A DNA stretch of 64,000 nt from Longitalea arenae (GTDB lineage: Bacteria; Bacteroidota; Bacteroidia; Chitinophagales; Chitinophagaceae), in contig NZ_JAFFJX010000008.1 of assembly GCF_016924755.1 (NCBI RefSeq), positions 248,001 to 312,000 of the forward strand, written 5' to 3'. Position numbers and translations under genes: made by a program. The notes below the pieces were generated by a model. The model saw only the letters and a list, made by a program, of their open reading frames with translations, searched no databases and had not been told where the DNA came from. This document shows positions 14,841 to 51,273 of this stretch, piece by piece (the first letter of the stretch is position 1; every line of letters starts with the position of its first letter).

Positions 14841-14842
14841 CT

Positions 14843-19085: not shown

Positions 19086-19096
19086 GTATACAGCAA

Positions 19097-20962: not shown

Positions 20963-21012
20963 GCGGGTCAAATATAAACCGATTTACTCATTTTTATGAG
21001 CCATGGCGTAAA

Positions 21013-22128: not shown

Positions 22129-22137
22129 AACAGCTGC

Positions 22138-22312: not shown

Positions 22313-23533
22313 TTAATATTTACTGATACCCACCCAAGAGGTACCGGTGTATTTAACGGTGATGGCCCCGCGGGTAGATATACTGTTCGACTCATTGGTA
22401 TCTAAACCAGATAAAATTACTGTATTGGCAGTGTGAAGGTTCTTGATGGTTATTTCCCGGTCCAGGGTACCGGTGGGTAAAGAAATAGTTGCTTGTCCGG
22501 CCCCGTAGTTTACAAATACCACATCAATATCGGCAGGTATAGTATAGGAAGCGCCGGTAACGGTGATGCTTTTGCGGGTGGGTGATTGGGAGCGTTTTTT
22601 AATTTGGCCATTGTTATCTACGACAAGAATGCTGTCGCTGCTGCTGGTGGAGGCGGGAAGACGCATTATAAAGAAATTAGTATTCTTATTATCATTATTT
22701 CTAAAGAAAAATCCCTCACTGTTTTGGCTATACCGGCTGATGGTACCGGGTGCCCCACAACCAATTACCAGGCTATCAGACTTATTTAAATTCAAAAAAA
22801 TAGACTTGTTAGTTTCAGAATTATTGGTATAAATATGTATAGGTCCTTTTTCAGCGAAAATATCGATTTGCTTGGGATCGTAATCAGTCAGAAGTCCCAT
22901 GCTGATGCCTACGGTTGATCCTTCGCCTGTACTCATATCAAAATCGCCTGTAGTAAGAGATAATTGTTGAGTATTAAACGATAAACCAGAGGCACTTCCA
23001 AAATTGCCGCTGGTTTTTCTGGTATCCAAATCAATATACTCCATATTCATCGTTTGGCTGGTAGAATAAACTACATCAGGATTACTTGCATTCTTCACTA
23101 TCAGGCTGTAGCCTTCCAGGCTATCCATTTTCATTTCACTGCTATAAAAATCATCCGATGTTTTTGACTTAAAATACAACTCACCAAAATTGGTAAGCTT
23201 CATGGAATGTGATAAACCATTATGAATCCGGTTCCCCGTAAAGGTCAGATCAGCATTCGCAAAGTTTTTATTGCCTCTCCCCAAATGAATGGTATCACCA
23301 CCTATCACTACAGAGGTATCGTCGAATTGAGACACTCTTCTAAACTCGGTTCTACCGCGGCCTTTGTTAAATAAGAAACCGGGTACATTTTGCGTATGGT
23401 TCTCGATGATCAGTTCTGCTGTATCGCAGGTGTTGGTGATCTTTACACTATCAGCCTTGATGGTGTAGATGTATTGGGCATAGAGGGCTTTTTCAATGCA
23501 AAGCAGGGTAATGACAATAAGGATCTTCTTCAT
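22313..23533 (-). CDS. Tail-fibre-like exported protein, family member 5
   Basis: The 406-residue protein has a signal peptide (MKKILIVITLLCIEKALYAQ) and then the family's near-invariant N-terminal segment YIYTIKADSVKITNTCDTAE...HTQNVPGFLFNKGRGRTEFRR (about residues 20-68). The middle is beta-rich and Asn/Ser/Thr-rich. The C-terminus (about 325-406) is a beta-sandwich-like unit, SITVTGASYTIPADIDVVFV...ITIKNLHTANTVILSG, seen in tail-spike and tail-fibre-like proteins. It is the last gene of the 28.7-kb block, 27 bases after its paralogue. Function is inferred as surface adhesion or display. Confidence 0.8.
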   Translation of the reverse strand: MKKILIVITLLCIEKALYAQYIYTIKADSVKITNTCDTAELIIENHTQNVPGFLFNKGRGRTEFRRVSQFDDTSVVIGGDTIHLGRGNKNFANADLTFTGNRIHNGLSHSMKLTNFGELYFKSKTSDDFYSSEMKMDSLEGYSLIVKNASNPDVVYSTSQTMNMEYIDLDTRKTSGNFGSASGLSFNTQQLSLTTGDFDMSTGEGSTVGISMGLLTDYDPKQIDIFAEKGPIHIYTNNSETNKSIFLNLNKSDSLVIGCGAPGTISRYSQNSEGFFFRNNDNKNTNFFIMRLPASTSSSDSILVVDNNGQIKKRSQSPTRKSITVTGASYTIPADIDVVFVNYGAGQATISLPTGTLDREITIKNLHTANTVILSGLDTNESNSISTRGAITVKYTGTSWVGISKY

Positions 23534-23560
23534 AATAATATATCTGTATTCGTTTTACTG

Positions 23561-24712
23561 TTAGTTCCACTTGAGCCATACAGTACCGTCACTGATCAAT
23601 TCAATGGTGCTTTGATTCGGAATGGAGTTGGTGGTTGTATTGTCAGGTAAGGTTATTGAAGAAGAGAAGGTCCACCAGTTAGCGCTACTGTTCCTGTTCC
23701 AGATGTATATTTTCTGACCAGCATAAGCTGAAGCAGCAGGAAGAATAACGCTGTGACTGCCGGTACCGGTAAGATCAGGCAGTTTGGTAACAGTGCCTAT
23801 TGCAGCAGTAACATCAGAGGTACTGGCTCCGCTTATTACAGCCATTGAACTTGTTGAGGAGCCTGGCCATGATTCTAATTTGTATAAATTCCCCTTTGCA
23901 TCGGCTACAACCGGTTTATACATGAAAGTATCTGATTTGGAAAGGATGTTGGGCAGTTTCAATGTATCGGTAAATAAACCGTTTCCCCGTACCGCCAATC
24001 TATCGGTTAAGCGATAGCTGTCAGTACCAATTCCAACATTCCCATTCCGGTAAAAGCGGGTAAAATGATGATGATACTGTCCTACACTGATTTCCACAAA
24101 CATACCAGGTGCATTTTCCGGATACATAGCATACGTATATTTATCGCCCGCTGAGAAAAAAAGACATCTTGTGTCTATATTGGCATCATTTCTAAACGAC
24201 ACTACACCCTGACGCGTAACAGTATCTTTCATATAAAAATTTATCTGTGGATAAGAAGTTTGGTTGCCACCGCGAGGGCCCTGAATGCCAAAACCATAAT
24301 CTGCCGTGTTTATTAAAAAATTTCTCGAGCCTGAACCTAAATTGAAAATCAAATTCTTTGAGTTCAGGTCGATTACTGTAGAATCTTTGATTAACCGACC
24401 TCCCAGTTGCACATCTTTTCCGCCCATACTCAAACCATTGCTGGCGGTTGTGTTCCCTCTAAGCATAAATGTATCATTACCCAAAACCAATGTTGAATCA
24501 TTTAGCTTTACGCCTCTTTTGAATTCGGTTCTTCCTTTGCCCTTATTGAACAGGAAGCCCGGCACATTTTGCGTATGGTTCTCAATGATCAGTTCCGCCG
24601 TATCGCAGGTATTAGTAATCTTTACACTATCTGCTTTGATAGTATAGATGTATTGAGCTTGCAGCGCCTTGTTGAAGCATCCGAGGATAAGGAAAAACAG
24701 CATTTTTTTCAT
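23561..24712 (-). CDS. Tail-fibre-like exported protein, family member 4
   Basis: The 383-residue paralogue has a signal peptide (MKKMLFFLILGCFNKALQAQ) and the shared segment YIYTIKADSVKITNTCDTAE through NKGKGRTEFKRG. After residue 70 it is unrelated in detail to its neighbours: a beta-helix-like middle with GNVGIGTDSYRLTDRLAVRG and a C-terminal sandwich (SVILPAASAYAGQKIYIWNR, ending LISDGTVWLKWN). It lies 31 bases after the 602-residue member and 27 before the 406-residue one. The shared segment differs from that of member 5 mainly at silent codon positions. Confidence 0.8.
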   Translation of the reverse strand: MKKMLFFLILGCFNKALQAQYIYTIKADSVKITNTCDTAELIIENHTQNVPGFLFNKGKGRTEFKRGVKLNDSTLVLGNDTFMLRGNTTASNGLSMGGKDVQLGGRLIKDSTVIDLNSKNLIFNLGSGSRNFLINTADYGFGIQGPRGGNQTSYPQINFYMKDTVTRQGVVSFRNDANIDTRCLFFSAGDKYTYAMYPENAPGMFVEISVGQYHHHFTRFYRNGNVGIGTDSYRLTDRLAVRGNGLFTDTLKLPNILSKSDTFMYKPVVADAKGNLYKLESWPGSSTSSMAVISGASTSDVTAAIGTVTKLPDLTGTGSHSVILPAASAYAGQKIYIWNRNSSANWWTFSSSITLPDNTTTNSIPNQSTIELISDGTVWLKWN

Positions 24713-24743
24713 ATAATGGTATTTACTGAATAAACATGTCGTA

Positions 24744-26552
24744 TTATCTTTTTTCTTTTATTAATGCTTTCAATTCAGCCATCTCTTGTTTTAACAATTG
24801 CAGTTCTTTATCCTGTTGAATAGAATATAAAGTCAACTCTTCAATTTTCTTCAATAAGGCAGCCTGATTGTTACCAATGTCGATGCCTTTTTTCTGCACC
24901 TCTGCAGCTGAAGGAATACCGGGCAAATGATTATTTTGTTTAATAAAAGCTTCCACTTCATTTAATCCAGGAAGTTTATAATCTTTATTGAATACATAGT
25001 CGGGCCAGCGGCCGGTTTGCGTGATAAGCATTTTTTGGGCGGAAATGCGGCCATTGACTGCCACGTCAGAATTTAAAGAACCATTAAAAGATGAACCTGA
25101 CTCTTCTCTGTAATAGAGGTTTCCATTGGCATCGGCCACTACAAAACGGGTGAGACTATTATTGCTACTCAAACCACCGAGGCGAACAGTGCCTGTAGTA
25201 TGTAATTGAGCTGTAGGCGTCTGCGTGCCAATACCCACCCGACCCACCATATTTACCGCTAAACCGGGTGTGTATTGTTTGCCGTATACATTTAACGCCA
25301 ACTGATTATCGGGTAAAAGCTGATAATATCCCGGATCGATGGTCACCAGTGTGCCTGTAAATGCGGTGCCAATACTATTTTGAAAACGATGCTGATCGCT
25401 GTTACTATTGGATTGATACGTAATTCCCCTTTCAGAAAAAATCCTGGCTCTACTACTTTCCTGATTGAATAAAAGTCCATTACCGAAAAATGCAGTCATA
25501 TTAACCGCTTGAGCAATATTACCTCCCACCGCAACATCACCAGCAAGAGTGGAGTTACCCATTACCTGAAAACGATTACCATTATCGGTAGTTGTTCCAA
25601 TTACTACATTTTGCGACTCTGTAACACGCATTGCTTCACCTTCTGAAACTCCGGATATAAAATGTAATTCACGCCCACTTATTTTTAAATCAGCTCTCAC
25701 ATTACCACCCTCTGCTCCGTTTAGTACGGTTCCAAACCAATAATGATTTTTTCTGCTAATGTAATTGCCGGCCCCTTCACGCCATTCACTGGTATCAGAT
25801 ACCAACATAACGAGGGCAGACGAATTAAAGGGTCCTCCTGTATTTCCAAAATAGAAAGGATTAGAAGCTATGGACACCCGTCCATCAGAAGCGATCCGTA
25901 GCGCAGGATTACCTACCCACCATGAAGAAAATGTCACATTACTATTTCCTAGTCCAATGTGACCATCACGTTCTATCATTATATTCTTATACTTTGCACC
26001 ATTATCGTTAGAAGTACGAAATAAAATGTTTTGTCCATCCCATGTATTTATCGCCCGCCCTATTTCTATACGATCGCTTGGTCTCGACAAATTTGCCGAA
26101 ATCGTTACTACGCCGTTGCCCGCCACTTGCAATTTATCGCCGTTGTCTGCAATATTACCTATGTGGAAATTGCCTGTATTCGTAAAACGCCCGCGGAAAC
26201 TGTTGTTTGTATAGAAATCGATATGATTGTTGTCCAGAGTTCCCAACACACCGGTTGAGCCGAACCGGTTGCCACCCTGCAGCCAGGGATTCATTCTTAA
26301 TGTATCACCACCTACAATGTAAACACTATCGGTTAACTTGAGCAGTCCTCTTCTAAATTCTGTTCTTCCGCGCCCCTTGTTGAACAAAAAGCCCGGCACA
26401 TTTTGAGTATGGTTTTCAATAACAAGCTCCGCCGTATCACAGTTGTTGGTGATCTTTACACTATCGGCTTTGATGGTGTAGATGTACGGTTGTTGGGCAT
26501 GGAGGGTCTTTTCGAGGCACACAAGTGCCAGAACGAAGACAATTCGCTTCAT
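24744..26552 (-). CDS. Tail-fibre-like exported protein with coiled-coil C-terminus, family member 3
   Basis: The 602-residue member is the longest. After a signal peptide and the shared segment (TIKADSVKITNNCDTAELVI, then NKGRGRTEFRRG) it has NPWLQGGNRFGSTGVLGTLD and several GxxxIGxxxDNGxKLQV-type strands (about residues 140-350). It alone ends with the Bacteroidota tail module WPDYVFNKDYKLPGLNEVEA, then HLPGIPSAAEVQKKGIDIG and a coiled coil to residue 602. That module resembles the self-trimerising ends of tail fibres. Its start codon overlaps the stop of an interrupted small frame (26549-26770). Confidence 0.82.
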   Translation of the reverse strand: MKRIVFVLALVCLEKTLHAQQPYIYTIKADSVKITNNCDTAELVIENHTQNVPGFLFNKGRGRTEFRRGLLKLTDSVYIVGGDTLRMNPWLQGGNRFGSTGVLGTLDNNHIDFYTNNSFRGRFTNTGNFHIGNIADNGDKLQVAGNGVVTISANLSRPSDRIEIGRAINTWDGQNILFRTSNDNGAKYKNIMIERDGHIGLGNSNVTFSSWWVGNPALRIASDGRVSIASNPFYFGNTGGPFNSSALVMLVSDTSEWREGAGNYISRKNHYWFGTVLNGAEGGNVRADLKISGRELHFISGVSEGEAMRVTESQNVVIGTTTDNGNRFQVMGNSTLAGDVAVGGNIAQAVNMTAFFGNGLLFNQESSRARIFSERGITYQSNSNSDQHRFQNSIGTAFTGTLVTIDPGYYQLLPDNQLALNVYGKQYTPGLAVNMVGRVGIGTQTPTAQLHTTGTVRLGGLSSNNSLTRFVVADANGNLYYREESGSSFNGSLNSDVAVNGRISAQKMLITQTGRWPDYVFNKDYKLPGLNEVEAFIKQNNHLPGIPSAAEVQKKGIDIGNNQAALLKKIEELTLYSIQQDKELQLLKQEMAELKALIKEKR

Positions 26553-26770
26553 AAACGATTATATAATTTTATTAATGCTATTTCCTTTGGAGCGGTTTCA
26601 ATTTCACCATTGCGGCCAGCTGTTAATCCCGGCTTTTTATTTTTTAATTCAAGAATTTCCGGCTGTTGTTTTTGCACGGTTTCTCTTTGGCGTTGGAATT
26701 CTTATTTATTAATGAACCTGCTGCTGTATACTCCAGTTCGCGTATAAAGGAGCGCAGCTGGTTGTTGCAT
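26549..26770 (-). pseudogene. Small frame interrupted by one stop codon
   Basis: Leftward from ATG 26770 the frame reads MQQPAALLYTRTGVYSSRF then INK and a TAA stop, and continues in the same frame as EFQRQRETVQKQQPEILELK...GRNGEIETAPKEIALIKLYNRL, ending TGA overlapping the ATG of the 602-residue gene (ATGA). The second half has coiled-coil-like heptads. It may be a decayed gene, or a small protein whose first stop needs confirmation. I do not recognise it. Confidence 0.35.
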
Positions 26771-26830
26771 TATATCTTCACAACAACAACCATTACGCTA
26801 TTCTTCTTATAAAACCGGTAAAACCTTTAT

Positions 26831-27325
26831 CTAAACCGAAGGGAGGTAATCAACTCCGTTTACTACCCAGTATTTCTCTGTATCTGGAATTAACTCATAA
26901 AAGTTCTCATACTTCCCAACCCACATATCTGGAACAAATTCCTCAAAAGTTAAATATTCTGGGAAAAACGAAAAAAGCACCTTTTTATCAAAGTCTATAA
27001 ATAGTGAAGGAAAAAGATGTCCTTTTGTTTCCCAACTTTCGATAGGCATATTTTTAATAATCATGTCACTCAACTGTTCCTTGGTAACTAAATAACCTTT
27101 AATTACCTTTTCAAATGACGGCCAATTTTCTGTATCAAGAACCTGGAAATTATCCCTCAAATGATCTTCATATTCTGTATTATCATCTCCTAAGCTTTCA
27201 AATATAGATTCCCATTTATTGTAATCAAGCACCCAGTACTCCTTGTCACTTAAATACCAGGAATATTTTTCCTTAAACTTGACTAATACAATAATATCAA
27301 CGCTATATTCCGGGTTTAAACTCAT
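26831..27325 (-). CDS. Putative immunity protein for the RHS toxin
   Basis: The 164-residue protein starts at ATG 27325 (MSLNPEYSVDIIVLVKFKEK), 13 bases after the RHS stop codon. It has no signal peptide, is acidic, and is rich in aromatic residues (WYLSDKEYWVLDYNKWESIF, SFFPEYLTFEEFVPDMWVGK), typical of polymorphic-toxin immunity proteins. It is clearly more AT-rich than its neighbours, as is the adjoining 3' end of the RHS gene, which suggests the toxin tip and immunity gene arrived together. I cannot assign a named Imm family. The immunity role is inferred from position, size, acidity and composition. Confidence 0.72.
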   Translation of the reverse strand: MSLNPEYSVDIIVLVKFKEKYSWYLSDKEYWVLDYNKWESIFESLGDDNTEYEDHLRDNFQVLDTENWPSFEKVIKGYLVTKEQLSDMIIKNMPIESWETKGHLFPSLFIDFDKKVLFSFFPEYLTFEEFVPDMWVGKYENFYELIPDTEKYWVVNGVDYLPSV

Positions 27326-27338
27326 AATTCTAACTGTT

Positions 27339-30300
27339 TTATTTATTAAAATCAAATGTCTTTCCAGAGCCAGGAACAACAACCTCATTTAACCACTGTG
27401 ACCATACAGGGGGTAATTCCAAAGAATAACCTGGTTGTCTTGGATCCACAACCTTTGGCGCCAACATTTTTTGATTATTTGGGTTGCTTTTATATCCTTT
27501 TTGTTTTATTGCATATTCCTGTATCATATCGTCAAACCAGGTTGGAACTTCAAAACTAATTACGGAAGAACCGGGACGACGGTATTTTTGGAAATACAAA
27601 GCATGGTCCCATCCATTTGTACTAACATTTAATGTTCCCGTATTGAAAGTTACGTTACCTGCATCATCTATCATAACCCGGCCTTGACTAGCTGCAGTTC
27701 CAGTTCCACCTTGAACGCGCCAATATATCTTAGTATTTGCAGTATTTGCGGTTGCACCTTTTTTTGTTACACCTGAGGTTGTCGCTCCGGAATTCGCTGT
27801 AGTTGACCTTTCGGCTGTTTTCGCAGCAGCAGCCGCTTTTTGTTCCGTTTTTAAAACTGTGCTTTTAGGTCCCTGAAATACTTTTCGGGTAAGTAAAAAT
27901 CCGCCAAAATTTTCAAAAGCACTCCAATAATTGTCAGGGTTTTTCCAATCTGACCACGAGATACTTTTGAATCCCTTAATTGCATCGTCAAAAGTATCAC
28001 CTACTTCCTCATTAAGTTGATTTATTACTCCGGAAGCGCCTTGACGACCAAAAGTCTTTACATATTTTACACCTGTATTCCATGTTGAAGCAATGCCATT
28101 ATAAGTACCAACCAATGCGTTATATGGTGCATTACCGAGACGGTCAACGGTAGATTTCGACTCGTTTTTTTCTATATAAGGCAACTCCTCGTTTCCATCC
28201 AAATCCAATGCATAAATAGGTTTATTTCCAGCAAATTGAAATGGAGTATACCATGGATAATCTTTAGTCAACGGATCCACACTCAAAAACTTCCCTAACC
28301 GCGGATCATAAAACCGCATCCCATAATCCTGCTGCTCTCCCACTCCCTTCACCTCATTATCATTCTCCTTGCCATTAAACCCATACCTATACCCGCCGGC
28401 ATTATAACTCCTTCCTGGCTGCAGCATTCCAAAGGGATAATAGTCCTGCGCACTTATGACCTGTGGATTGAAATAATCTACGATGCTGTTATTAGAAGAA
28501 ACCCCAAGTTTCTTATCATTCACAGTCACGAGTATGTTCCCTAAATGATTGCCAAGTTCAAAGAGCTTGTTACCCCGCACAAAGGTAAGACTATCGCCCG
28601 TACCGAGTAATGGCATCGTTATTTTCGATGAATCAGCGCCAGGCTCCGGCTGATAACCCATATCCAATTTACGTCTGAACAAGCCTATCCGGCTACTTCC
28701 ATACAAATGCAATTCAGACTGTGTTAAATGGCCATTATTCACTGCAGGTTTACCCGACTCATACACACTCATTACATTACCCTGGGCATCTCTTACATAC
28801 CATGTCCGCGCCGTATCTGTTGATCCTGATCTTATAACCGTTTTGCCGATCCGGTTTCCACCGGCATCATAAACATATCTTATATCAACACTATCTCCTT
28901 TGACAATGCGGCTTATTTTTCCATACACTGTCCAACTAATGCTGGTGATCCCTTCCGCATTATCTTTAACCAGGTTCCCGATAGAGTCATATACATAGTT
29001 TCCGGCAGCCTGCGCATCTATATCAACATCGTAGTTACCAGCAGGCACTGTATCGTAAACGTAGTCCAGTTGATTGGTACCTGGTTTATAACCGTAAGCC
29101 AGTTTGTCCATATCCATTGGCTTGCCGCCTGTCGTATTGCCATTACGTTTATAAGCCAGGATATTCCCATTGGCATCATAACTCACCCGCTCCTGGAAGT
29201 CACTTTGATGCGTCAGATCTCCCCATGTATTACCTGTCTTTTTCCAGGCATCCATAGCTACGATCCTATTAAGCTGATCGTACTGATAATTGTACAAAAG
29301 CGGATTACCCAGTTTCTCGATGTTCACCGCCATACTGCTGATGTTTCCATTGTACAGCGGTCTATAAGCGCCTCCCAGCACCGCACCTACACCTGCATCC
29401 ATTGGCGTAGCGCCGCTGATGGCTTTATAATCTCCATTATAATAATTGAGCATCACATTGTAGGCGGTTTTTCCAACCACACTGCCTGTACTGCCATCGG
29501 GTTTTAATGTGTAACCTGCGCCAACATGCACATCCGGATTGATCGACTTTAACCAGCCCTGAAGGTTGTACGCATAGTTTACGCCCTGCACCTGTTGCTC
29601 GCCCAATACGGTACGTGCCAGCGGGCCATGATCATAATACTCATAGAAGGCGTCATTATCCCAGTTGATACTATCTGTACTCGTAAGCACATTCGTTATC
29701 CGGTTCTCAGCATCGTATATGTATTTATGATAAAACGCATCTGGCTGGCCGGGCTGATAACTTACCTGGTTCACTTTACCGCTTACCAGGTCATAGTCAT
29801 AAGCAATTTTCTTTACACCAATCTTGTTATCATATAGAACGCCTTGCTTATAATACTGCAACAAGGTATCTACATTACCAAGGATATCATATGTGTAAAA
29901 GCTGGCGGCAGCGAAGTTAAAACTGCCTAGTTCATTAGCCTTATTGTACAAAGCAGTCCATGACACGCGGTTGCGCAGGTTCCTTGTCTTCAACACGGGG
30001 TCCACACCCGGATATTCAATATCATAGGTAGTTTTAGTGATCTGCTCTGCGGTGGGCGCTGCGCTTGTCAACCAGGCTTCCAGGGCGCCCTGGCTTCTGC
30101 TGGTAACATCGGCCATGGCTGTGCTGCTGGTTAACTGTCCAACTTCTGTGATCCGGCCTATGAGATCATATTTTGTATAGCTGTATTGTGCGCTGTCCTG
30201 CTGTTTAGCATTCTGCGACACACTTAATCTTCCCAACCGGTCGTACCAGAAGGCGCTTGTTCCTCCATCGGGTGAATGCTGCGCCACTACCTGGTTCAGG

Positions 30301-36080: not shown

Positions 36081-36156
36081 GTTAATCTTATTTTATACCT
36101 TCTCAGTGTTACAATGCCTGAAAAAGCTTCTATATGGTTAAGGTCTCTGATTAAGC

Positions 36157-36996: not shown

Positions 36997-37058
36997 ATAA
37001 TAAGTTATATTACTCAGTTAATACTATTGCCCATTGTCGATTGTCAATTGCCTGTTGT

Positions 37059-40000: not shown

Positions 40001-43000
40001 TTGTCATAGCCGCTGACCTGAACTGGTTGGTCTCTTTCTGGAACAGCGGTATGAGTGATGGTATAAGGGCCGGGAATGATCCCACGGTAAAAAAGTCGCT
40101 GTTCACATTTACGTTGGCGCCGATGGACACAGATGTCTGGTCACGCATATCGGCCATCAATTCCACATCCTTTCCAATCGTCGCTGCAGTATCAACATTC
40201 CCGTACGGATCGATGGTGGTAACCAGGTTCTTCAATTGTTTAAACGTTACATCGCCGTTTTCAACATGATAGAAATATTCTGCATGCGAAACAGGGTTTT
40301 TAGCATCATTCTCAGCATAACTTGCTTCAGAACGCAGTTTTCCATTCATATCATTCAGCTCCACTTTAAAGCCCTGGGCAATGCTGAGGAAGCTTTTTGC
40401 ATCTATGCGAAGGAAATTCCTGAGCAAAGGTTTATAGCGTTTCTTGGTGTCATTATCCAGCACCGACCAGTCCCAGGTAGTGGGGAAATCGTAGGTTGTA
40501 TAGAACCTTGTTTCAGCATAGCCATTGGCAGAACGCGTTTTATCGGTATGTATACTTCTCACCCGTACTTTACTGTAACCAACAGATGCACCCGGAAAAA
40601 ATGCTTCACCCAATGGCTCTTCACTATACTGCGCTGCAGTAGGCGCCATGATCGACACGCGGTCCTGGTATTCAATGGGCAGATGGAAAGGATTTTCCTC
40701 TGCACCGATCACCGGTTCCCATGCAGCCACGCCACTGCTTACGCGCGTTTCTTTTCCATGTATGGTCTGCGTGGTTGTATAATCATAATTCTGTCCAAGT
40801 ACGGTTTCCTTTTTCTGCGTCATGGCGTTCCAGTGATCGTAGATCAGGATGGTCTTTACCCGTAAGCCGCCGCCTAATTTTTTGCCGGTTGCACAATTCA
40901 ACCGTACATATGAACGGGCAGGAACAGTATGCGCAGCCTGGTTCCTGAACCGTGCTGATTTGGTATAACCGAGCAGCATGTTCGACAGGTCGGGCAATGA
41001 TGGCACCAGTACCCGGACTGCATCCATGGGGTTCAGATCATCACCAGGCTCTGACCGGTAGTATGCTTTTGATGGCAGGTTCAACCGTAAATAATTGATA
41101 GCGGCCTGTGCCAGCGGGCTCAATGATCCGCCGCCATCACCGTCATTATTCACTCCGGCCATTTTGATCCAGATCACATTGGGATCGTTGGTAAATCCAT
41201 ACCAGTTGGCGGCCGCTACATCGGGCTCCGCATAACAGGGCACATACTCGGAGCCGGAACCATACCCATCATTATCCGGCATCTGCACATATAGCCTGAA
41301 GTATAATTTGCTCATACCTTCCAGGTAACGGGCAAACAATTCTGCTTTTGTAGAAACCGGTACCGGAATCCTTACATAAGCAAATAAATGATCGTGTGTG
41401 CTCAGATCGCCGTCCACTGTATACAATCTATCGTTATACGAGCCGGAACTGGTTTGTCCAAAGCCGGCCAGTTGCAGCATTTGTGTCGACCGCCTGTTTT
41501 GAACATACGCATAATCGTCACTTTCATATTTCACTTTGATGCGCCCGCCTGAAGGTAATTTTATTGAATCCAGCATCCACGCAGCTGCGTTATAGGCAGC
41601 CAGGGCGCTGTCCTGTATTGCATAAGGATAATCGGCATTGGTCAGCGGATTGCCTGCTGTTGCATCAGGGTTTTGCGCCGGATCCTTATAGGTTCCCCAT
41701 TTATCGCTGGCATTGCTTGTGTACCGGGGATTGTTGTTGTGGTAATAGAACACATACGGATTCAGCTTGCCTTTCTCGTTGCCATTATAAGTGAACCATA
41801 TTTTTTTCAAGGTCAGTTTACCTGAATCGTTACCCTGGTTATTTCCAAATTTGTTTATACCACGGCACAACTCATAGCTATATTCAAAATGAACTGTTTT
41901 TACCGGAGTTGCATTTGTACCGCGGGCTAAAAAGTCAGCTTTTGAATACAGGTCTATCTGTTTCAGGCTATAGGCTTTTCCACTGTTCAATTTGACGCCG
42001 CTTTCGCTGATGGCCTGCAGGTCTTCCCGGTGTTGCAGGGTAAAAGTGGCGATCATGGTCTTTGATTCAATAGAATGCAGGTACCACATTTCCTTTTTAC
42101 CGCTGATATAATGCGCTTTGTCGTCGCGGTTATAGGTCTTCAGCCCTTCGCTGTAATTGGCGCTGTCGTTATAAGGCGCGCGCCACTCAAAGGGACTTGC
42201 AATACCGGCGCTTTTGGCATAATTGAATTTTACCGCATCGCCGATATCATCATCGCTGATACCATTACTGGTAACATCTACATAGTCGGGCGACAAAATG
42301 CCCGTCAACAGGAACGAGTGTGCATAAGCAGGCGTTTCCTGCCGGCTGTAATAACCTGACTTGCCACTGGTATTACGCGTACTGTTCTCATCAGAAGAAA
42401 AACTGGTCATGCCCGTCTGGTTATTCTGACGATTGTCTTTCGTTACAGAAAAACTTACCTCCTTCTGTTGAATATTATAGACCGGTATACCGTATACATA
42501 TCGCCGTCCGTCGGCATTCAACACATTTATTTCAGAAATGTGATTGCTTTTACGGAAATTATTTACGCGGTCTTCGCGGGTAATGACCTCGTCTACAATA
42601 GCAGTATCCACATAGGTGGGAGGATACATGTATATTCCCGGAATAGAATCTTTATGGTCTTTGTCCCACGGGCGGTTTTGCTGATCGGGTCTTCTCCAGG
42701 CAAATGCCATATGTGCATACCCATTACCCCCCAGTTCTATGTATTCTACGCGAAGTTTATAGAAATGGTCCTTGACCAGGTTTATCCTTCTCGTCATCCA
42801 ATCGGGGCCGGAACCTGGCTTCCAGTTATCAAACAACAGTGTATCGTTCATCCACAGCCTGCACCTGTCGTCCATGCGCACACCAAAATCATAGGTGCCG
42901 GTCACCGGGGCTTTCAGGCTGCCAAGCCAGCGGACAGTGAAATTATCATTCACAAAATTTTTGTCAATCAAAATTTTCGGGTACCCTTTCTTATCCAGCC

Positions 43001-45032
43001 AGTAAGGAGTCCACCTTTCCCAGTCGAAGTAAATAGTAGAGTTTAATTGTGTGGGATTAAAGTAGGGAGGTTTAAACTCCCTATTGGGGTAATAATATCC
43101 GATCACGCCAACGCCATTTCCCAATTTATCGCTTACGGAAACATCGTCACAATGGCGGGAACCGAACTTGTTTATCGTATGATGATATATGTATTTATCC
43201 AACCCGGAAACGGCTGCTTCCTGCGCCGTAAGGTAAGTGATCACCTGCGACCGTTTGTCGCGGGTGTTGCGCGCAGCACTGGCTGCATTGATATCGATGC
43301 TGCCTACTTTGGTTTTTCCCCTGTACCTGTTAAGTGTGTTTGAGGCAGTGATTGACGGGCTGTTCCTGCTGTCCTGTGCGAGGGCTGGCACTACTACATC
43401 ATCGCCTCCTATGGCGTCATAAAAAGCAGTTGTATTGATCGTTTTTTCCGCGGGATTGCGAAAATACACCGCTTCAAAAAGATTTTTGCTGTTTTTGAAA
43501 TTGATCGTATTTCCTATAATGTTTTCCGATTCCCAGGGCCCGGTTTGTGTATATGAATAGTTGCGGTTCAGATCCACCCCGCCATGCACCGCGTCGCCCA
43601 ACCCGATATCAACACTCGCAGCACCAGTAGTTGTTTTTGTGCGGCTGCGGTGATCTGCAATAAATCCTATGTCGCCGCGGTAAGGCCGGAAACTGCCACC
43701 GGTACCTTCGCCAGACATGGAGAACACATCATAGGTATAAGATGGCACTGCGATATGTGGAATAGCCGGTTTTTCGCGGTAGATCATTTCTTTTTCGCGG
43801 TTAAAATCTGTTACGGCATCGCGGTTACCAACCAGGTTCTGGTAATTGAGGTAACCGAATACAGGGATCGACACAGCCGTATCCGCTGGCGCTATGTACT
43901 CCTGCCCCCAATAGCCGCTTATATATCCTGTAGGATGGGTTCCTTTTGCCTCATATCCTACTTTAATGGTCACGCTGGTGTTTGAATTGGTCATTGGCAT
44001 GGTGATACTGGGCGAATAGGTTGGCCAGGCAAAGTCGAGACCGGCCTCCAGCCGTCTGCTGATCCCGTATATCCTTGGCTTTACATTCATTCCTAGCTGA
44101 ATCGCCTTTAAACCGGTTCTGGAATTGTAGGGAGCAGCCAGCGATATGCCGGCTCCGGCAGTAAAATTCTCATTCTTTGTATTCAACGTATACTGGTAAG
44201 ACAAACTGGGTCGTATGGTAATACCTTCCTGTGAATTATCCGTCAGGGAAAGGCCACCGCTCAGGGTACCGGTTGATTTATTACCCACATTTATGGAGGC
44301 ATTCAAAGAACGTTCAAAGCCCCAGCCTTTATAGGTATTATGAAAAATACCAAAACTTCCACCAACGGTTATGCCTTTACTAACGGTATCTATAACGATC
44401 TGGTTGTTTTTTGCATAGGCAGAAAGACCAAACAATTCAAAATCTGCCCCCACTGTAACTCCCCAGTTCTTATTTGGCTTTATTGACGACACTTTCGTCA
44501 TGGTATCGGCCCCGCCATTGAAATCATCCGGCACACCGCGCATATTCCGGGTAATGGAACCAGGGTTAATGTTCCAGCCTAATCCTACCCAGCTGGCCTC
44601 TTCATCCATGGTAATTCCACAGTGATAAGCAATATTAACCGGGTAACCGCCCACATCCAGCAACGGAATGTTGTAGCTGAAGTCGCCCGTGAACAGGTCT
44701 ACCATATTGTTGCTGTTGACCGAGGAGAAGGACTGGCTCTCGGGTTGCGAAGGCCCGCCAATGAATACGCCCTGGTTATTTTCCCTGGTCCCCGGCGAAC
44801 CATTTGCTTTTACGATTTTAATGTCAGGCGCATGTTCACGTACAGGCCTGTTCGAAGACATGAACACATTTACCGCTTCAGCGGCCGGCATTTCATAAGT
44901 ATAAGGAATGCCAGAGCTGCGGGGCGCATTCCAAGATCCCATCCGTTCCGCTATCGTCACCTGAACGAATGAAATGCTCAACAGGAACAAGGCTATATGT
45001 TTCTGATACCTATAAGCTAAACTCAATATCAT
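37059..45032 (-). CDS. Giant exported PA14-containing protein paired with the RHS toxin
   Basis: The 2657-residue protein has a signal peptide (about residues 1-28) and a Bacteroidota RHS/SpvB-like N-terminus (NMVDLFTGDFSYNIPLLDVG, then DEEASWVGLGWNINPGSITR). A PA14-like carbohydrate-binding module spans about 690-780 (FTVRWLGSLKAPVTGTYDFG, RMDDRCRLWMND). A DNRLRE-like region (about 2080-2210, ADILSARLILQADQRG) and a CBM-like jelly roll (about 2410-2590, GLYSLKVDKDS ... TTYFDDIRIHPF) follow, and it ends with YD-like NYATFYEYDDDGTLVRVKKE. It lacks the RHS core motif and a toxin-like tip, so it looks like a structural partner of the 2913-residue protein. Confidence 0.85.
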   Translation of the reverse strand: MILSLAYRYQKHIALFLLSISFVQVTIAERMGSWNAPRSSGIPYTYEMPAAEAVNVFMSSNRPVREHAPDIKIVKANGSPGTRENNQGVFIGGPSQPESQSFSSVNSNNMVDLFTGDFSYNIPLLDVGGYPVNIAYHCGITMDEEASWVGLGWNINPGSITRNMRGVPDDFNGGADTMTKVSSIKPNKNWGVTVGADFELFGLSAYAKNNQIVIDTVSKGITVGGSFGIFHNTYKGWGFERSLNASINVGNKSTGTLSGGLSLTDNSQEGITIRPSLSYQYTLNTKNENFTAGAGISLAAPYNSRTGLKAIQLGMNVKPRIYGISRRLEAGLDFAWPTYSPSITMPMTNSNTSVTIKVGYEAKGTHPTGYISGYWGQEYIAPADTAVSIPVFGYLNYQNLVGNRDAVTDFNREKEMIYREKPAIPHIAVPSYTYDVFSMSGEGTGGSFRPYRGDIGFIADHRSRTKTTTGAASVDIGLGDAVHGGVDLNRNYSYTQTGPWESENIIGNTINFKNSKNLFEAVYFRNPAEKTINTTAFYDAIGGDDVVVPALAQDSRNSPSITASNTLNRYRGKTKVGSIDINAASAARNTRDKRSQVITYLTAQEAAVSGLDKYIYHHTINKFGSRHCDDVSVSDKLGNGVGVIGYYYPNREFKPPYFNPTQLNSTIYFDWERWTPYWLDKKGYPKILIDKNFVNDNFTVRWLGSLKAPVTGTYDFGVRMDDRCRLWMNDTLLFDNWKPGSGPDWMTRRINLVKDHFYKLRVEYIELGGNGYAHMAFAWRRPDQQNRPWDKDHKDSIPGIYMYPPTYVDTAIVDEVITREDRVNNFRKSNHISEINVLNADGRRYVYGIPVYNIQQKEVSFSVTKDNRQNNQTGMTSFSSDENSTRNTSGKSGYYSRQETPAYAHSFLLTGILSPDYVDVTSNGISDDDIGDAVKFNYAKSAGIASPFEWRAPYNDSANYSEGLKTYNRDDKAHYISGKKEMWYLHSIESKTMIATFTLQHREDLQAISESGVKLNSGKAYSLKQIDLYSKADFLARGTNATPVKTVHFEYSYELCRGINKFGNNQGNDSGKLTLKKIWFTYNGNEKGKLNPYVFYYHNNNPRYTSNASDKWGTYKDPAQNPDATAGNPLTNADYPYAIQDSALAAYNAAAWMLDSIKLPSGGRIKVKYESDDYAYVQNRRSTQMLQLAGFGQTSSGSYNDRLYTVDGDLSTHDHLFAYVRIPVPVSTKAELFARYLEGMSKLYFRLYVQMPDNDGYGSGSEYVPCYAEPDVAAANWYGFTNDPNVIWIKMAGVNNDGDGGGSLSPLAQAAINYLRLNLPSKAYYRSEPGDDLNPMDAVRVLVPSLPDLSNMLLGYTKSARFRNQAAHTVPARSYVRLNCATGKKLGGGLRVKTILIYDHWNAMTQKKETVLGQNYDYTTTQTIHGKETRVSSGVAAWEPVIGAEENPFHLPIEYQDRVSIMAPTAAQYSEEPLGEAFFPGASVGYSKVRVRSIHTDKTRSANGYAETRFYTTYDFPTTWDWSVLDNDTKKRYKPLLRNFLRIDAKSFLSIAQGFKVELNDMNGKLRSEASYAENDAKNPVSHAEYFYHVENGDVTFKQLKNLVTTIDPYGNVDTAATIGKDVELMADMRDQTSVSIGANVNVNSDFFTVGSFPALIPSLIPLFQKETNQFRSAAMTKVIRRYGIIDSVVVIDKGSRISTKNILYDAETGDPLLTRTQNEFNDPVYNFNYPAHWVYKGVGPAYQNIGAILEHLEVKNGKITDGLNGLDTLYLTAGDELLVYSKETINATGCSTSSYAFFPDSYKLWVIDSNAVNGGPQQLFLVDKNGTPFSGNDITLKVTRSGHRNMNGSVGTVTSLRSPLVRGGDGKYHLVFDTATKVVNAAASELAQYWKVADKRKMDVLKDCVPTSNDSARFANEACSCMKPFFDHLIQSNQLFVRGFLQRKTISQLVSEINTPGFNVNNCPILKENLNSYFRPVSADPNGEVYTCRIGNIEINLLRRNPSSMSFYDLTTSTCTSEGVIYKSPNVVIPEPDTVTVRIAPDFSASMLSTQNCPTFRDSLTLIDSTSDRLLVETNLNLGGAERNAISILRFNNVSQIPARADILSARLILQADQRGHHSTYWPDANSMNLVDSLSVSLSASGWFPRVPLESLHEQLTTSPWHREVRRTVPFQNDTIDVKEYVDGYRNRDYTSASFILAQGTKDFHTNVSGYGAGYEGAPGYMQSGYGNYYSTIYSQRYADAAKWPVMEVTYVVYPPFPDTMGAVLRYNSTLQCTDISSGLCYSAITDTTINPYQYGILGNYRPLRSYVYYGRRMESDPMQPINTRKNGVIKDFAPFWILQGKNWVPSYDTTRWVWNAQTTLFNRKGFELENKDPLGRYNAGIYGYGLTLPVAVLQNSHFQEGAYEGFEDYGFETNNCDNACPVARSFDWSSHQDDFTKVQSHSGLYSLKVDKDSLTSISAEILPAADAVIPTLASSVKSGPCGNQLKGMLASKSTVLPNFAPIAGKKVIVGGWVKEDNSCQCKTYTRNHILVGFTVGGTVNTIQLSPSGNLVEGWQRYEAVVEIPANATKMTLTLQASDSATTYFDDIRIHPFNAQMKSFVYNAVNLRLMAELDENNYATFYEYDDDGTLVRVKKETERGVQTVKESRSALIKEEQ

Positions 45033-45106
45033 AGTACTGGGGTATGTATGGTGGTACAGTAATTATTCAAGTCGTATTAAGGTTCTATGTTCTTTATGAT
45101 CGCTGG

Positions 45107-46210
45107 TTATTTTGTCACAGTGAATTTCACAGTCCAGCTTTCATTACGGCTACTGGTAAACCGGAACAGATATACCCTGTTCTTAACGATCCTTTTATTC
45201 TTTTTAATGGGCACCTGTAATTGATTGGGGCCATATTGCACCGGCACTTCGCCTTCCTGCACAACCGGGTTGCCGGGTTCTTCAATACTGGTGATGGTAT
45301 ATTTTATCGAGGTATCGGCGGCTGCATTATTATACGTTACCCGCAACACATTGCCTGCAGTGGCGATCGATGCATCCTGGGCGCGTTGTACTTCAACATA
45401 AGGGGCTTGTTTTACAGAGGCAGCAGATGGTTGAACGGCCGTTACCCGGAAGGTCCAGATCTCACTTAACGCCACCGCTTTCCCGCTATTCATAGCCACG
45501 ATCCGCCAGGCATACACTTTACCGGTATCCAATGACCTGGTAGATGCCGGGTAATTCCAGAAAAGGTCTTTCGTATATACCGCGGCGTTCAATGGCACAT
45601 TCTGCTGTATGGCGTCGGCTTTTCCCTGCCCGGGCAAAACCTCTACCACTACAATAGCATAACCCAGGTCATTGAACAATCCCAATGGCGTAGGCGGCAA
45701 CCAGGTAAATTGCGGATAAGGCGTAATGAGTTTGTCTTCATTGGCAGGCGTATTCAGCAAGGGCGGGCTCAGCGGATCTACGTTGACCGGAATACAATTT
45801 TCCACCCAGGTAATATTGCCTTTATCTGCGCTCACCACCGAGTAACAGGCCTGGTAACGGCCTGCAGGCAACAAACCATTCGGGTCCATATCAATTTTCC
45901 CGCCGGGAATACTATAGGTATATTGAACAGGCGAAACATCTTTGGCCTGCAATTGCCGGGCGCCTTTGCCCAATGACACGGGCGCCGATACCGCAGTGAT
46001 CACCGGCTGGTTCGTCTGCGCATCCAGCAATACCAGATTCACCTTTACCAGCATATTGGAATTACTGGCATTTACCAGCACCACATTCCATAGCTGGTTC
46101 TTCATGAGTACGCCTGCCGGTGGCACCTGTAGCGTCATGCTTAGCTGTGCTTGTGATGTAACCATTACACCGGACAGCAGTAAACAAAACAGCATCCATT
46201 TTCTAGACAT
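45107..46210 (-). CDS. Exported beta-sandwich-rich protein of the RHS operon
   Basis: The 367-residue protein has a signal peptide (MSRKWMLFCLLLSGVMVTSQ, then AQ). The body is almost all strand: an N-terminal Ig-like region (VLMKNQLWNVVLVNASNSNM; LLPAGRYQACYSVVSADKGN), a fibronectin III-like middle (PLLNTPANEDKLITPYPQFTW ... VYAWRIVAMNSGKAVALSEI) and a third sandwich to the C-terminus (LYRFTSSR-like end, WTVKFTVTK). It starts 10 bases after the upstream barrel gene's stop, so the two are probably translated together. A periplasmic or surface scaffold role is inferred. No catalytic motif is visible. Confidence 0.78.
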   Translation of the reverse strand: MSRKWMLFCLLLSGVMVTSQAQLSMTLQVPPAGVLMKNQLWNVVLVNASNSNMLVKVNLVLLDAQTNQPVITAVSAPVSLGKGARQLQAKDVSPVQYTYSIPGGKIDMDPNGLLPAGRYQACYSVVSADKGNITWVENCIPVNVDPLSPPLLNTPANEDKLITPYPQFTWLPPTPLGLFNDLGYAIVVVEVLPGQGKADAIQQNVPLNAAVYTKDLFWNYPASTRSLDTGKVYAWRIVAMNSGKAVALSEIWTFRVTAVQPSAASVKQAPYVEVQRAQDASIATAGNVLRVTYNNAAADTSIKYTITSIEEPGNPVVQEGEVPVQYGPNQLQVPIKKNKRIVKNRVYLFRFTSSRNESWTVKFTVTK

Positions 46211-46220
46211 AATTACCTGT

Positions 46221-48695: not shown

Positions 48696-48719
48696 ACGAA
48701 AAGGTTATTAAGTTTTAAA

Positions 48720-49853
48720 TTACTTCGTAAACCAGTGCAATCCGTTGCTATATAATTCTATAAGCCCGTAATTCGTACTGATCACTTTGGAAGCGGCGCC
48801 ATCTATTGTTCCGCCAGCCGATACATTTACTGTAATGTTGTAAGTGGCAGCAGCGCCACTTTCATCTTTTATGATTAGAACTTTATTCGTCATACCTGAA
48901 GCACTGGGCAAGGTTACTGTACGGGCAGCGGTCAATGCGGTATAAGCAATCAGGTAATCCGAGGATAGCACCGAGTAACCGGCATCGTTTACAGCGGTAC
49001 GATTTAACTGAGTAAGATTCCAACCTGCCATTTTAACTACATTTCCATTAGCATCAATTGCAACAGGCTTATAATTTACCGTATCAGACTTGGAAAGAAT
49101 ATTGGGCATTTTAAGAGTATCACTGAGATAAGTAGTACCACTAACTTGTAGTCTGTTACCATTGTCTACATTCGTTCCCACCAATGTATTGTTTTGCATG
49201 ATAACCACCTTGCTACTTAAAATAAGTCTGTGCTGTGGTCTTGTAGAAATAACAGCATCTGAAGGAATTGCCATAGGAGACCAGGCGTAATAACCTCCTG
49301 CTACACCAAGTGTTAAATAAGGACCAAAGTTTCCGTTTGAGATTACTACGCTCGATGATTGCGTAGGGCTTAAAGCCCATACATCAAACCTGTTAATGGC
49401 TTTAATCGCGCCCACACTTCCAGTTTCAACTTCCATCTTCCACCTTCCATCTTCGGTGGTGGTACCCCATAAAAAATTGCCGCTATTGCTAATTCGACCT
49501 CTAAAGGCACTATTTGAGTAAAAATCTATTGGATTATTGTCCATGGTTCCTATACTCCCGATTGTTCCAAACCTGTTTCCACCCTGCAACCAGGCATTCA
49601 TCCGTAATGTGTCGCCCCCAATTACGTATATACTATCGTTGCTTTTCTGCAATCCTCTTCTGAACTCTGTTCTTCCCCTGCCTTTGTTGAATAAAAAGCC
49701 TGGCACATCCTGGGAATGATTCTCAATGATTAACTCCGCTGTATCGCAGGTGTTAGTGATCTTCACACTATCAGCTTTGATCGTGTAAACATACTGCGCG
49801 CATAATGATTGTGCTACGCCTACCAGAAATATGATCAGGACTATTCTTCTCAT
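48720..49853 (-). CDS. Tail-fibre-like exported protein, family member 2
   Basis: The 377-residue protein starts at ATG 49853 (MRRIVLIIFLVGVAQSLCAQ); a TTG three codons upstream is less likely. The shared segment is intact (YTIKADSVKITNTCDTAELI, with HSQDVPGFLFNKGRGRTEFR). NAWLQGGNRFGTIGSIGTMD closely resembles the 602-residue member, and the remainder diverges. The C-terminus is a sandwich unit (TAARTVTLPSASGMTNKVLI ... LIELYSNGLHWFTK). It starts 20 bases after the first gene of the operon and ends 24 bases before the barrel gene. Confidence 0.8.
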   Translation of the reverse strand: MRRIVLIIFLVGVAQSLCAQYVYTIKADSVKITNTCDTAELIIENHSQDVPGFLFNKGRGRTEFRRGLQKSNDSIYVIGGDTLRMNAWLQGGNRFGTIGSIGTMDNNPIDFYSNSAFRGRISNSGNFLWGTTTEDGRWKMEVETGSVGAIKAINRFDVWALSPTQSSSVVISNGNFGPYLTLGVAGGYYAWSPMAIPSDAVISTRPQHRLILSSKVVIMQNNTLVGTNVDNGNRLQVSGTTYLSDTLKMPNILSKSDTVNYKPVAIDANGNVVKMAGWNLTQLNRTAVNDAGYSVLSSDYLIAYTALTAARTVTLPSASGMTNKVLIIKDESGAAATYNITVNVSAGGTIDGAASKVISTNYGLIELYSNGLHWFTK

Positions 49854-49873
49854 TGCAATCAATGGTTAAATTA

Positions 49874-50980
49874 TTATTTGATTACCCTCACTTTATACGT
49901 ATCAGACGCAATTGTTACTGCGCTGTTGCTGGCATTGTATGCCTGCAGCGTTACCGTATTATTGGATGTTACATATGCAGTGACTATTATGGAAGGGGGA
50001 TTAACCGCGCCGTTGTTAGCGCTTACGTTCACCACATCCCCTGGTCTTGCCCCATTAACAGAGAGCGTGGTAGTAACTGAATTGAAGGCGCTTAAAGAAG
50101 GGCCGCCAAAACTGGTAGTCAACTGGCCGTCGAGCATTTTTGCGAGTTTGTACCGAACGGAACCTGCTGTTAAGTACAGATCAGAGCCATCGTATTCCAC
50201 TGCATCATTTTCTATGTTAGTGAGTAATGCGCCAGGTGCAAATTTCATGGCGGCGGTACCGGGAGCAGAAGTTCCGGCGGCAATCTGCAACCATGCTCTG
50301 CCAAGACTGTAATGAGGACCTCCGCCCGGGAAACCAACCGTGATACGCCCATTGATCACCTGCAAAGCAACAGTATCAAACCTTACTGCTTTATTCACAT
50401 TTCCCGGTACACCCGCAGTAGCCGCGAAACCAGTATGATCGCACCCAAAACCTGCATGTGAATAAGGCGTCCAGGAATGAAAAACCAATGAAGTGGGGTT
50501 ATATTGCTGCCCATTATGATCTTCCCCCTCATACATTTCCTGAATCTGGAAGAAAGAATTGTCATCATGCGATTTAATCCTGAACCACTTGGAGGTAAAA
50601 AGCTCTTCTTCCGTGAACCGGAACTTCAGATCCGTTTCCATGTCAACCAATTCACCGCCCATTTTCACGTGGCCGTCAGTAGCATGTAAACCATTCGAAG
50701 CCGTTACATTCACCCGGCCTTTATACAAGTTGATCGTATCGTCACCTATAAGATAAAGGCTATCATTGATGGCAAACGCCCCGCGCCTGAACTCTGTGCG
50801 ACCTCTGCCTTTATTATATAAGAAGCCAGGCACATTTTGGGTGTGATTCTCAATGATCAACTCCGCTGTATCACAGGTATTAGTGATCTTCACGCTATCA
50901 GCCTTGATCGTGTATACATATTGGGCATAGATTGCCTGGCCCGTACAGGTGAGTACAAGCAACATAAGGAAGCGATTCAT
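49874..50980 (-). CDS. Tail-fibre-like exported protein, family member 1
   Basis: The 368-residue protein is first in the 28.7-kb block. Signal peptide MNRFLMLLVLTCTGQAIYAQ is followed by the shared segment (VYTIKADSVKITNTCDTAEL, then FLYNKGRGRTEFRRG). A beta-rich, His/Gly-containing middle (GEDHNGQQYNPTSLVFHSWT) precedes KLAKMLDGQLTTSFGGPSLS and a C-terminal sandwich (NGARPGDVVNVSANNGAVNP ... ASDTYKVRVIK) like those on phage tail-fibre tips. About 260 bases separate its start from the candidate promoter, leaving a long leader. Confidence 0.8.
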   Translation of the reverse strand: MNRFLMLLVLTCTGQAIYAQYVYTIKADSVKITNTCDTAELIIENHTQNVPGFLYNKGRGRTEFRRGAFAINDSLYLIGDDTINLYKGRVNVTASNGLHATDGHVKMGGELVDMETDLKFRFTEEELFTSKWFRIKSHDDNSFFQIQEMYEGEDHNGQQYNPTSLVFHSWTPYSHAGFGCDHTGFAATAGVPGNVNKAVRFDTVALQVINGRITVGFPGGGPHYSLGRAWLQIAAGTSAPGTAAMKFAPGALLTNIENDAVEYDGSDLYLTAGSVRYKLAKMLDGQLTTSFGGPSLSAFNSVTTTLSVNGARPGDVVNVSANNGAVNPPSIIVTAYVTSNNTVTLQAYNASNSAVTIASDTYKVRVIK

Positions 50981-51240: not shown

Positions 51241-51273
51241 CAAATATACATTACCTGATCATCGACCGGCAAA
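51241..51273 (-). promoter_or_regulatory. Candidate promoter of the RHS operon
   Basis: Leftward, TTTG (51273-51270) and TATATTTG (51248-51241) are spaced by 21 bases, an exact match to the Bacteroidota -33/-7 consensus. It is about 260 bases upstream of the first gene of the block, and no other exact match was found closer. Confidence 0.6.

Follow-up and report, generated by a model that had tools for sequence, protein, structure and literature searches.

We analysed a stretch of 64,000 nucleotides from Longitalea arenae (Chitinophagaceae, Bacteroidota; contig NZ_JAFFJX010000008.1, positions 248,001 to 312,000; G000:C38:248001-312000 in our sample), which we call the window and whose positions are used below. 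Its minus strand carries a locus with genes for two giant RHS-type proteins (RHS1 and RHS2), a predicted outer-membrane barrel, a 367-residue protein, a protein encoded in the slot between RHS1 and RHS2, an immunity-like protein and five proteins with a common N-terminal segment (tagA to tagE). A previous reading of the sequence alone had described a 28.7-kb locus running in one direction on this strand, and its extent from 50980 to 22313 was confirmed. It had counted ten intact genes and one interrupted frame, whereas we found all 11 frames intact and no interrupted frame. The intergenic gaps of 10-76 bases were also reproduced, with the exception of 278 bases before tagC. The immunity-like frame was listed with 185 amino acids (aa) and in this form overlaps RHS2 by 50 bases; starting it at the ATG at 27325 (164 aa) removes the overlap. 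Sec-like N-termini, judged by eye, are present in 10 of the 11 proteins, the exception being the immunity-like one. The genes are as follows:

49874..50980, minus strand: tagA, 368 aa, signal peptide, shared N-terminal segment and variable C-terminal part
48720..49853, minus strand: tagB, 377 aa from the ATG at 49853, shared N-terminal segment
46221..48695, minus strand: barrel, 824 aa, predicted outer-membrane protein (C-terminal F, family profiles); the conserved barrel-family region is approximately the second half
45107..46210, minus strand: 367-residue protein, TANFOR part (residues 22-145), Fn3-like part (146-260) and C-terminal part, from profile-profile matches
37059..45032, minus strand: RHS1, 2,657 aa, PA14 domain at about residues 691-788
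36157..36996, minus strand: slot gene between RHS1 and RHS2 (formerly "LolA"), 279-aa protein predicted to be exported
28194..36080, minus strand: RHS2, conserved part with DUF6443, CylK-matching repeats, YD repeats and Rhs-associated core, to about residue 2629
27339..28193, minus strand: RHS2, variable tip, 284 aa, predicted toxin
26831..27325, minus strand: immunity-like gene, 164 aa from the ATG at 27325, low GC content, 13 bases after the tip
24744..26552, minus strand: tagC, 602 aa, shared segment
23561..24712, minus strand: tagD, 383 aa, shared segment
22313..23533, minus strand: tagE, 406 aa, shared segment

A five-gene unit is conserved in the Chitinophagaceae

The core of the locus is a unit of five genes, encoding the barrel, the 367-residue protein, RHS1, the slot protein and RHS2. 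We followed it in 195 genomes of the Chitinophagaceae and in 395 genomes of the phylum; since only the best few candidates per genome were scored, the family counts for the barrel and the 367-type protein are lower bounds. At least 35 of the 195 family genomes, from 24 of 101 genera, encode the barrel, and at least 47 encode the 367-type protein. Seven carriers of a close barrel are named: six are Niastella records and the seventh is Longitalea luteola. Within the genus of the window, the genes are arranged as tag(s), barrel, 367-residue protein, RHS1, slot gene, RHS2 and tags between constant flanking genes: six other genus stretches fetched have a homologue of the gene at 53300-55213 on one flank, and seven have, on the opposite flank, a homologue of the TonB-receptor-like gene (15836-18208). 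Some of the genus loci are split over contigs.

Merging the pieces of single frames reduced 55 barrel match rows to 48 barrel places, from which we fetched 20 loci on long contigs, two of which are additional loci in genomes belonging to the same genus as the window. The order and strand of barrel, 367-type gene, RHS1 and RHS2 were kept in all 20, with RHS2 reaching the contig end in three, which supports a single unit of constant order across the family. All 20 also have a frame of 240-284 aa between RHS1 and RHS2, of which the genus profile of the slot protein matches 13 and misses 7. The barrel and the 367-type protein stand side by side, as in the window: a 367-type match lies within 300 bases of the barrel in 42 of the 48 places. 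The other six comprise three contig ends, two short fragments and the genome G011, where the nearest match is 21 kb away. In three of the 20 loci (in G024, G223 and G221; L130-L131, L138 and L148) RHS1 was found in two frames and is possibly decayed or split.

RHS2 has the features of a polymorphic toxin

That this is an RHS polymorphic toxin locus, as the sequence-only reading had recognised, was borne out by a conserved RHS2 core, variable tips and orphan tips. RHS2 matched the Rhs-associated core model TIGR03696 with 39.1 bits (cut-off 32.5) and the YD repeat model TIGR01643 with 20.7 bits (cut-off 15.8); it also contains DUF6443 and repeats matching CylK, which we take to be a propeller. 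In bins of 100 residues, six genus members have identities of 0.53-0.88 to the window protein as far as residue 2600, and of at most 0.24 thereafter. Among 24 distinct RHS2 tips found by motif, only five pairs shared short BLAST similarity at E ≤ 1e-3. A few tips of relatives had Pfam matches, to NlpC/P60 (in two) and to CHAP, LysM and Ntox46 (in one each), and no Pfam family was found at E ≤ 0.01 in either the tip of the window protein or the 164-aa immunity-like protein. The tip and the 164-aa gene lie within the 2-kb bin of the lowest GC content (0.389, 26001-28000), and several loci have orphan core-plus-tip pieces after RHS2. By these features, RHS2 looks like a classic polymorphic toxin. 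Tc toxins and the type VI secretion effector Tse5 have Rhs repeats around a C-terminal toxin as well, and the RHS2 profile weakly matched Tse5 (E 3e-4); unlike in these systems, there are signal peptides here and no Tc sequence match (VgrG, PAAR and TcA were not looked for).

The conserved core, the variable C-terminal tip, the small gene behind it and the orphan tips are the same as described in passages of PMC3482391 for RHS/YD-repeat polymorphic toxins. Unlike in those, two giant RHS-type proteins, both apparently exported by Sec, are encoded here in one operon with a predicted barrel, a TANFOR module and a slot gene. The other RHS-type protein, RHS1, contains PA14 in 9 of the 14 family members scanned, including that of the window. 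The slot protein had been called a LolA-like carrier; we dropped this identity because no LolA-type Pfam family was found at E ≤ 1 in 25 slot members and none among the solved structures. We conclude that the locus is a conserved operon for predicted exported RHS toxins with swappable tips in soil Bacteroidota.

The 367-residue protein is related to TANFOR modules

TANFOR toxins (TIGR02542; passages of PMC7073777) are a separately described class. Since all matches to them in the Chitinophagaceae remained below the curated cut-off, we call the family proteins TANFOR-like. Comparison of the profile of residues 22-145 of the 367-type proteins (21 members) with the TANFOR region of these proteins gave a probability score (Prob) of 91.8; after exclusion of a mis-framed TANFOR row (L167), Prob was 94.8 with E 5e-8 over 107 collinear columns. 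Residues 146-260 matched the region behind TANFOR with Prob 99.4. Control profiles (slot protein, tag, barrel and swapped regions) stayed at Prob ≤ 0.6. Modules from the wider phylum bridge the two groups, with Prob 99.3 against the N-terminal part of the 367-type protein and 98.7 against TANFOR. In addition, the 21-member module profile matched all 15 TANFOR-like loci fetched (E 3e-10 to 1e-21), several of them mainly through the Fn3-like part. The homology thus extends over TANFOR and the Fn3-like part. The "beta-sandwich scaffold" ascribed to this protein earlier stands for the Fn3-like part, as judged from fn3 matches in 2 of 21 members and the profile match; its TANFOR nature had been missed. 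In Pfam, the window protein had only two weak matches, both below the cut-off. By its profile matches, the 367-residue protein is a free-standing TANFOR+Fn3 module. In TANFOR toxins, the domain lies at the N-terminal end of a protein whose C-terminal end is the toxin; here, the module is a protein of its own and the variable tip belongs to RHS2.

The barrel is related to barrels beside TANFOR-like genes

The barrel of the window has no Pfam family at E ≤ 1. Its family profile matched the barrels linked to TANFOR-like genes with Prob 96.1 (E 3e-9, 369 columns); it matched phylum barrels with Prob 99.9, and the latter matched the TANFOR-linked barrels with Prob 100. Controls with PorP/SprF, TonB-receptor and reversed profiles gave Prob ≤ 10. 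For PorP/SprF, represented by 28 control frames picked by strand and position, Prob was at most 4.6 against the barrel and 6.3 against the TANFOR-linked barrels (range in the profile comparison 0.9-6.3), and PorP_SprF was not among the best 25 of 42 Pfam families for the relatives of the window barrel. In the barrel alignment, 20 of the 25 members end in F, as do all 14 TANFOR-linked relatives, and across the sets C-terminal aromatic residues were counted in 20/25, 14/14 and 11/14. From homology, these C-terminal residues and the context, the barrel is predicted to be an outer-membrane protein. No convincing solved-structure match was obtained for the barrel, the module, the slot protein or the TANFOR-linked barrel; the matches listed for the barrel fall in the profile region 181-371 and include many coiled-coil proteins.

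The genome of the window has a second unit (L267, G000:C22:950001-970000) at 7765-19861 of that stretch, with a divergent 868-aa barrel, a 386-aa TANFOR-type protein, a 183-aa lipoprotein-like gene, RHS1 and the slot gene, where the stretch ends. The same gene set, followed by RHS2, was found in G007:C12 (L268). The family profile did not find these two second-locus barrels; they came to light only in profile comparison, where they matched the wider barrel families with Prob 97.8 and 93.1.

As a separate observation, the C-terminal part of the TANFOR-linked barrel profile gave weak matches (E 4e-6 to 2e-4) inside frames of 1,657-1,783 aa in ten genomes (for example G196:C106 and G103:C1).

Barrel and module occur together at other loci

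One alternative, which we consider improbable, is that the barrel and the 367-residue protein are unrelated envelope proteins (with adhesion or porin functions, for instance) travelling along with an ordinary RHS toxin operon. The usual polymorphic toxin features of RHS2 agree with this explanation, as do the lack of a Pfam family (E ≤ 1) for the window barrel and the two sub-cut-off matches of the module. We surveyed the phylum genomes with a wider barrel profile, scoring the best two candidates per genome, and found matches in at least 17 of 395 genomes, 15 of them outside the family. Eight of these 15 loci have a single frame in which a TANFOR-type module precedes the barrel, six have the module in the next frame, and the single locus without a module (L218) is a marginal barrel match. 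The RHS pair was not detected in any of the 15 stretches (up to 20 kb each), so that fusion or adjacency of barrel and module in 14 of 15 loci argues against mere travelling along with RHS genes.

The co-occurrence of a related barrel with TANFOR-like toxins speaks against it as well. Seventeen of the 195 family genomes encode TANFOR-like proteins, at 18 places in total. In 13 of these, the gene immediately next to the TANFOR-like one encodes a protein of 564-594 aa with a C-terminal F, the TANFOR-linked barrel; in one further place, one gene lies between the two. In 17 of 18 places a TANFOR-linked barrel lies on the same contig within 10.5 kb of the TANFOR-like gene; the last place is in a fragmented genome and its barrel is on another contig. 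The TANFOR-linked barrel was present in 17/17 genomes with a TANFOR-like protein versus 32/178 others (Fisher 6e-12, uncorrected for phylogeny). Thus, by sequence homology, the barrel and small adaptor accompanying the RHS pair are related to those beside TANFOR toxins, and related barrels are present at both types of locus.

At one of the next-frame loci (L212, 9337-14152), the only one scanned for RCC1, the TANFOR-type module is fused to RCC1 repeats and lies beside the barrel gene. A module-bearing protein adjoins the barrel gene in L213-L217, too.

The shared segment of the tagged proteins is an accessory

We confirmed that five proteins of the window share an N-terminal segment directly after the signal peptide. 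It has 46 invariant positions in 93 alignment columns. The tag profile found the five proteins in their own genome with E 5e-52 to 1e-49, and since the next match had E 0.2, the similarity is not due to chance. Residues 22-70 are 88-92% identical among the five proteins, whereas the third codon positions are only 35-62% identical, and the signal peptides in front are 25-55% identical in protein sequence. Because of the low third-position identity, we rejected a recent duplication or a gene-conversion tract; judged from the same comparison, protein-level selection maintains the segment, which would suit a function in addressing or docking.

The sequence-only reading had proposed to check whether barrel, 367-residue protein and tag segment occur together beside RHS genes; we found this for the first two and the RHS genes. 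The tag is not constant: with a wider profile we found it in 10 of 195 family genomes (8 genera), versus 35 with the barrel. An initial survey (9 of 99 genomes) had confined the tag to the genus of the window, a view overturned by this wider profile. The barrel is present in 9 of the 10 tag genomes (Fisher 7e-7) and in 7 of the 8 genera (1e-4; both values uncorrected for phylogeny), and tag and barrel matches lie on one contig in 6 of the 10. We conclude that the tag is an accessory of some units and no constant part of them. Further tag genes were found at G001:C46, G002:C14 and G007:C12. One of these stretches (L271, G001:C46:72001-92000) carries, at 8575-14339, three tandem tag proteins of 633-638 aa and has neither an RHS nor a barrel gene. 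Orphan 5′ pieces of tag genes (49-112 aa) lie among orphan RHS core-plus-tip pieces in L042-L043, L046 and L055, as if tags and tips were shuffled together.

The description of the tagged proteins as tail-fibre-like proved weakly supported: it found agreement in the C-terminal parts of two of the five proteins, where tagA matched phrog_19253 (of unknown function; E 3e-4) and tagB a PHROGs "baseplate protein" (E 3e-6), and the other three had no match. Tail-fibre-like motifs proved to be few when counted in the fetched loci, and the count was not used as evidence. An origin of the tag as a phage piece was rejected: tagA, the one tag protein tried, had no match in 50,697 phage records, and the PHROGs matches were C-terminal and limited to these two proteins.

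Promoter-like site and neighbouring genes

Upstream of tagA, a motif search revealed one further feature:

51241..51273, minus strand: promoter-like site TTTG-N21-TATATTTG, about 260 bases before the first gene; suggestive only

We take TTTG-N21-TATATTTG to be the consensus of the Bacteroidota promoter type. A near-identical site is present at a near-identical distance in G007, and the pattern occurs somewhere within 700 bases in 4 of 8 genus loci, the window counted. The site predicted at 51.24 kb is thus present; a single transcript starting there is only plausible, because the pattern occurs three times in the window versus 2.2 expected.

Just upstream on the same strand lies a GH114-like gene (51632-52657); of the genus stretches compared, G007 alone has a homologue in this position. 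Between the operon and the TonB-receptor-like gene is a pair of carbamoyltransferase-like and SGNH-hydrolase-like genes (19097-22170, named by eye), the latter with a homologue at the same place in G006.

A model for delivery at the cell surface

Gene content and order, tip polymorphism, the homology of module and barrel, their fusion and co-occurrence, and the constraint on the tag, all observed here, are combined in the reading that we favour with somewhat better than even confidence: a polymorphic toxin delivered at the surface, with the RHS pair docked on the barrel. In this model, all parts except the immunity protein would enter the periplasm by Sec. RHS1 and RHS2 would form a joint carrier, with the exchangeable toxin at the C-terminus of RHS2, and the gene after the tip would protect the producer. 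The 367-residue TANFOR+Fn3 adaptor would dock the RHS pair on its cognate outer-membrane barrel, which would export the cargo or hold it at the surface, in the way of an SprF/PorP-like barrel for a type-B substrate (SprF for SprB). Toxins with their own N-terminal TANFOR may work likewise, through a related barrel. The tagged proteins, probably fibres at the surface or for receptor binding, would be optional, and their constant N-terminal segment would address them to the same complex. In this model, outer-membrane location, docking, export, toxicity, immunity and the fibre role are all predictions from sequence.

The precedent is provided by substrates with type-B C-terminal domains (CTDs), which, according to passages of PMC12618676, need cognate PorP/SprF barrels for secretion and surface placement; PMC9143113 likewise describes such cognate pairing. 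The gene of a type-B substrate lies beside that of its own barrel and the two form specific pairs, which the barrel and module here may resemble: 42 of 48 barrel places adjoin the module, and the module or the RHS pair would be the substrate. Unlike in type-B systems, the module is N-terminal or free-standing, and the barrels are not detectably related to PorP/SprF. A scan of four window proteins (RHS1, RHS2, tagC and the 367-residue protein) for the CTD models TIGR04183 and TIGR04131 of NCBIfam gave no match at E ≤ 0.01. Docking of the cargo by the module on its own barrel is for these reasons proposed by analogy. By the same analogy, we infer that a cognate outer-membrane export or anchoring partner may serve both toxin classes.

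Several findings weigh against the model. By sequence comparison, the relation between the barrel and the TANFOR-linked barrels runs through wide profiles: the latter are matched neither by a genus-only barrel profile (Prob 0.67) nor by the two second-locus barrels (Prob 1.4). The strand-alternation ratio was 1.5-1.9 for the barrel sets and 2.5-2.8 for true barrels, and the value of 1.7 for RHS1 means that the barrels are not separated from RHS1. The 367-residue protein of the window has no direct match to the curated TANFOR model TIGR02542, and only 2 of 21 members have one (best E 0.03); none of the 195 family genomes has a match over the curated cut-off, and the TANFOR sequences used in our comparison are below it. 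The TANFOR-linked barrel profile also matches 32 genomes without a TANFOR-like match, nine of them only weakly and in part, in other frames. In the TANFOR-like locus of L. arenae itself, a distance of 10.5 kb separates the barrel from the TANFOR-like gene, and our co-occurrence statistics ignore phylogeny. Finally, some tag genes are away from any known unit (G001:C46), and an extra locus in G003, although it has tags, a 367-type gene and both RHS genes, lacks the barrel and the slot gene, as if these two could serve it in trans.

The principal alternative is that the type IX secretion system (T9SS) does the outer-membrane crossing and that the barrel is a T9SS shuttle or surface anchor specific for TANFOR substrates, without a separate exporter; we regard this as less probable than the favoured reading. 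Passages of PMC7073777 propose T9SS export for TANFOR toxins, and in a text search of its main text words starting with barrel or porin were absent. The type-B substrates with their cognate PorP/SprF barrels (PMC12618676 and PMC9143113) are a direct precedent. The SprA translocon was found in the L. arenae genome and, over the cut-off, in 59 of 59 genomes examined with a barrel or a TANFOR-like protein; it was also found in 19 of 20 comparison genomes, G555 being marginal. Because SprA is nearly universal in this sample, its presence says little, and it does not distinguish a pore from a T9SS shuttle. The absence of a CTD from the four proteins scanned and the lack of a detectable relation of either barrel group to PorP/SprF (Prob ≤ 4.6 and 6.3) argue against the T9SS. 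Least probable is that the RHS pair is a hollow shell like that of Tc toxins (RHS1 as TcB, RHS2 as TcC), forming a free particle aimed by the tagged fibres: the two giant RHS-type proteins do lie close together in all 20 fetched family loci, RHS2 has the Rhs core, the YD repeats and the weak Tse5 match, and by eye RHS1 presumably resembles SpvB/TcB, but the two RHS1 profiles and the RHS2 profile matched no Tc chain among the solved structures, no SpvB or Tc family was found in Pfam at E ≤ 1 in 14 RHS1 proteins, and the signal peptides and the co-encoded barrel fit export rather than cytosolic assembly.

Beyond the barrel-docked RHS pair, we tentatively propose a wider view, which we hold with considerable reserve: TANFOR modules and this barrel family may be the two halves of an undescribed, T9SS-independent outer-membrane delivery platform of Bacteroidota, the module acting as the address and the barrel as the exporter or launcher. 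The module would then be used in free form (for RHS pairs), as part of a toxin, as part of a protein with RCC1 repeats, or in one chain with the barrel. In the open literature searched, which leaves out most subscription journals and all preprints, we found no published description of the arrangement of barrel, TANFOR and RHS. If true, the platform would supply the exit that is missing for TANFOR toxins and for RHS toxins exported by Sec, without the T9SS, and the Bacteroidota RHS toxins with signal peptides would gain a candidate partner. Since the barrel is fused to the same module elsewhere and lies near 17 of 18 TANFOR-like genes, the question of how TANFOR toxins leave the cell becomes testable by gene deletion.

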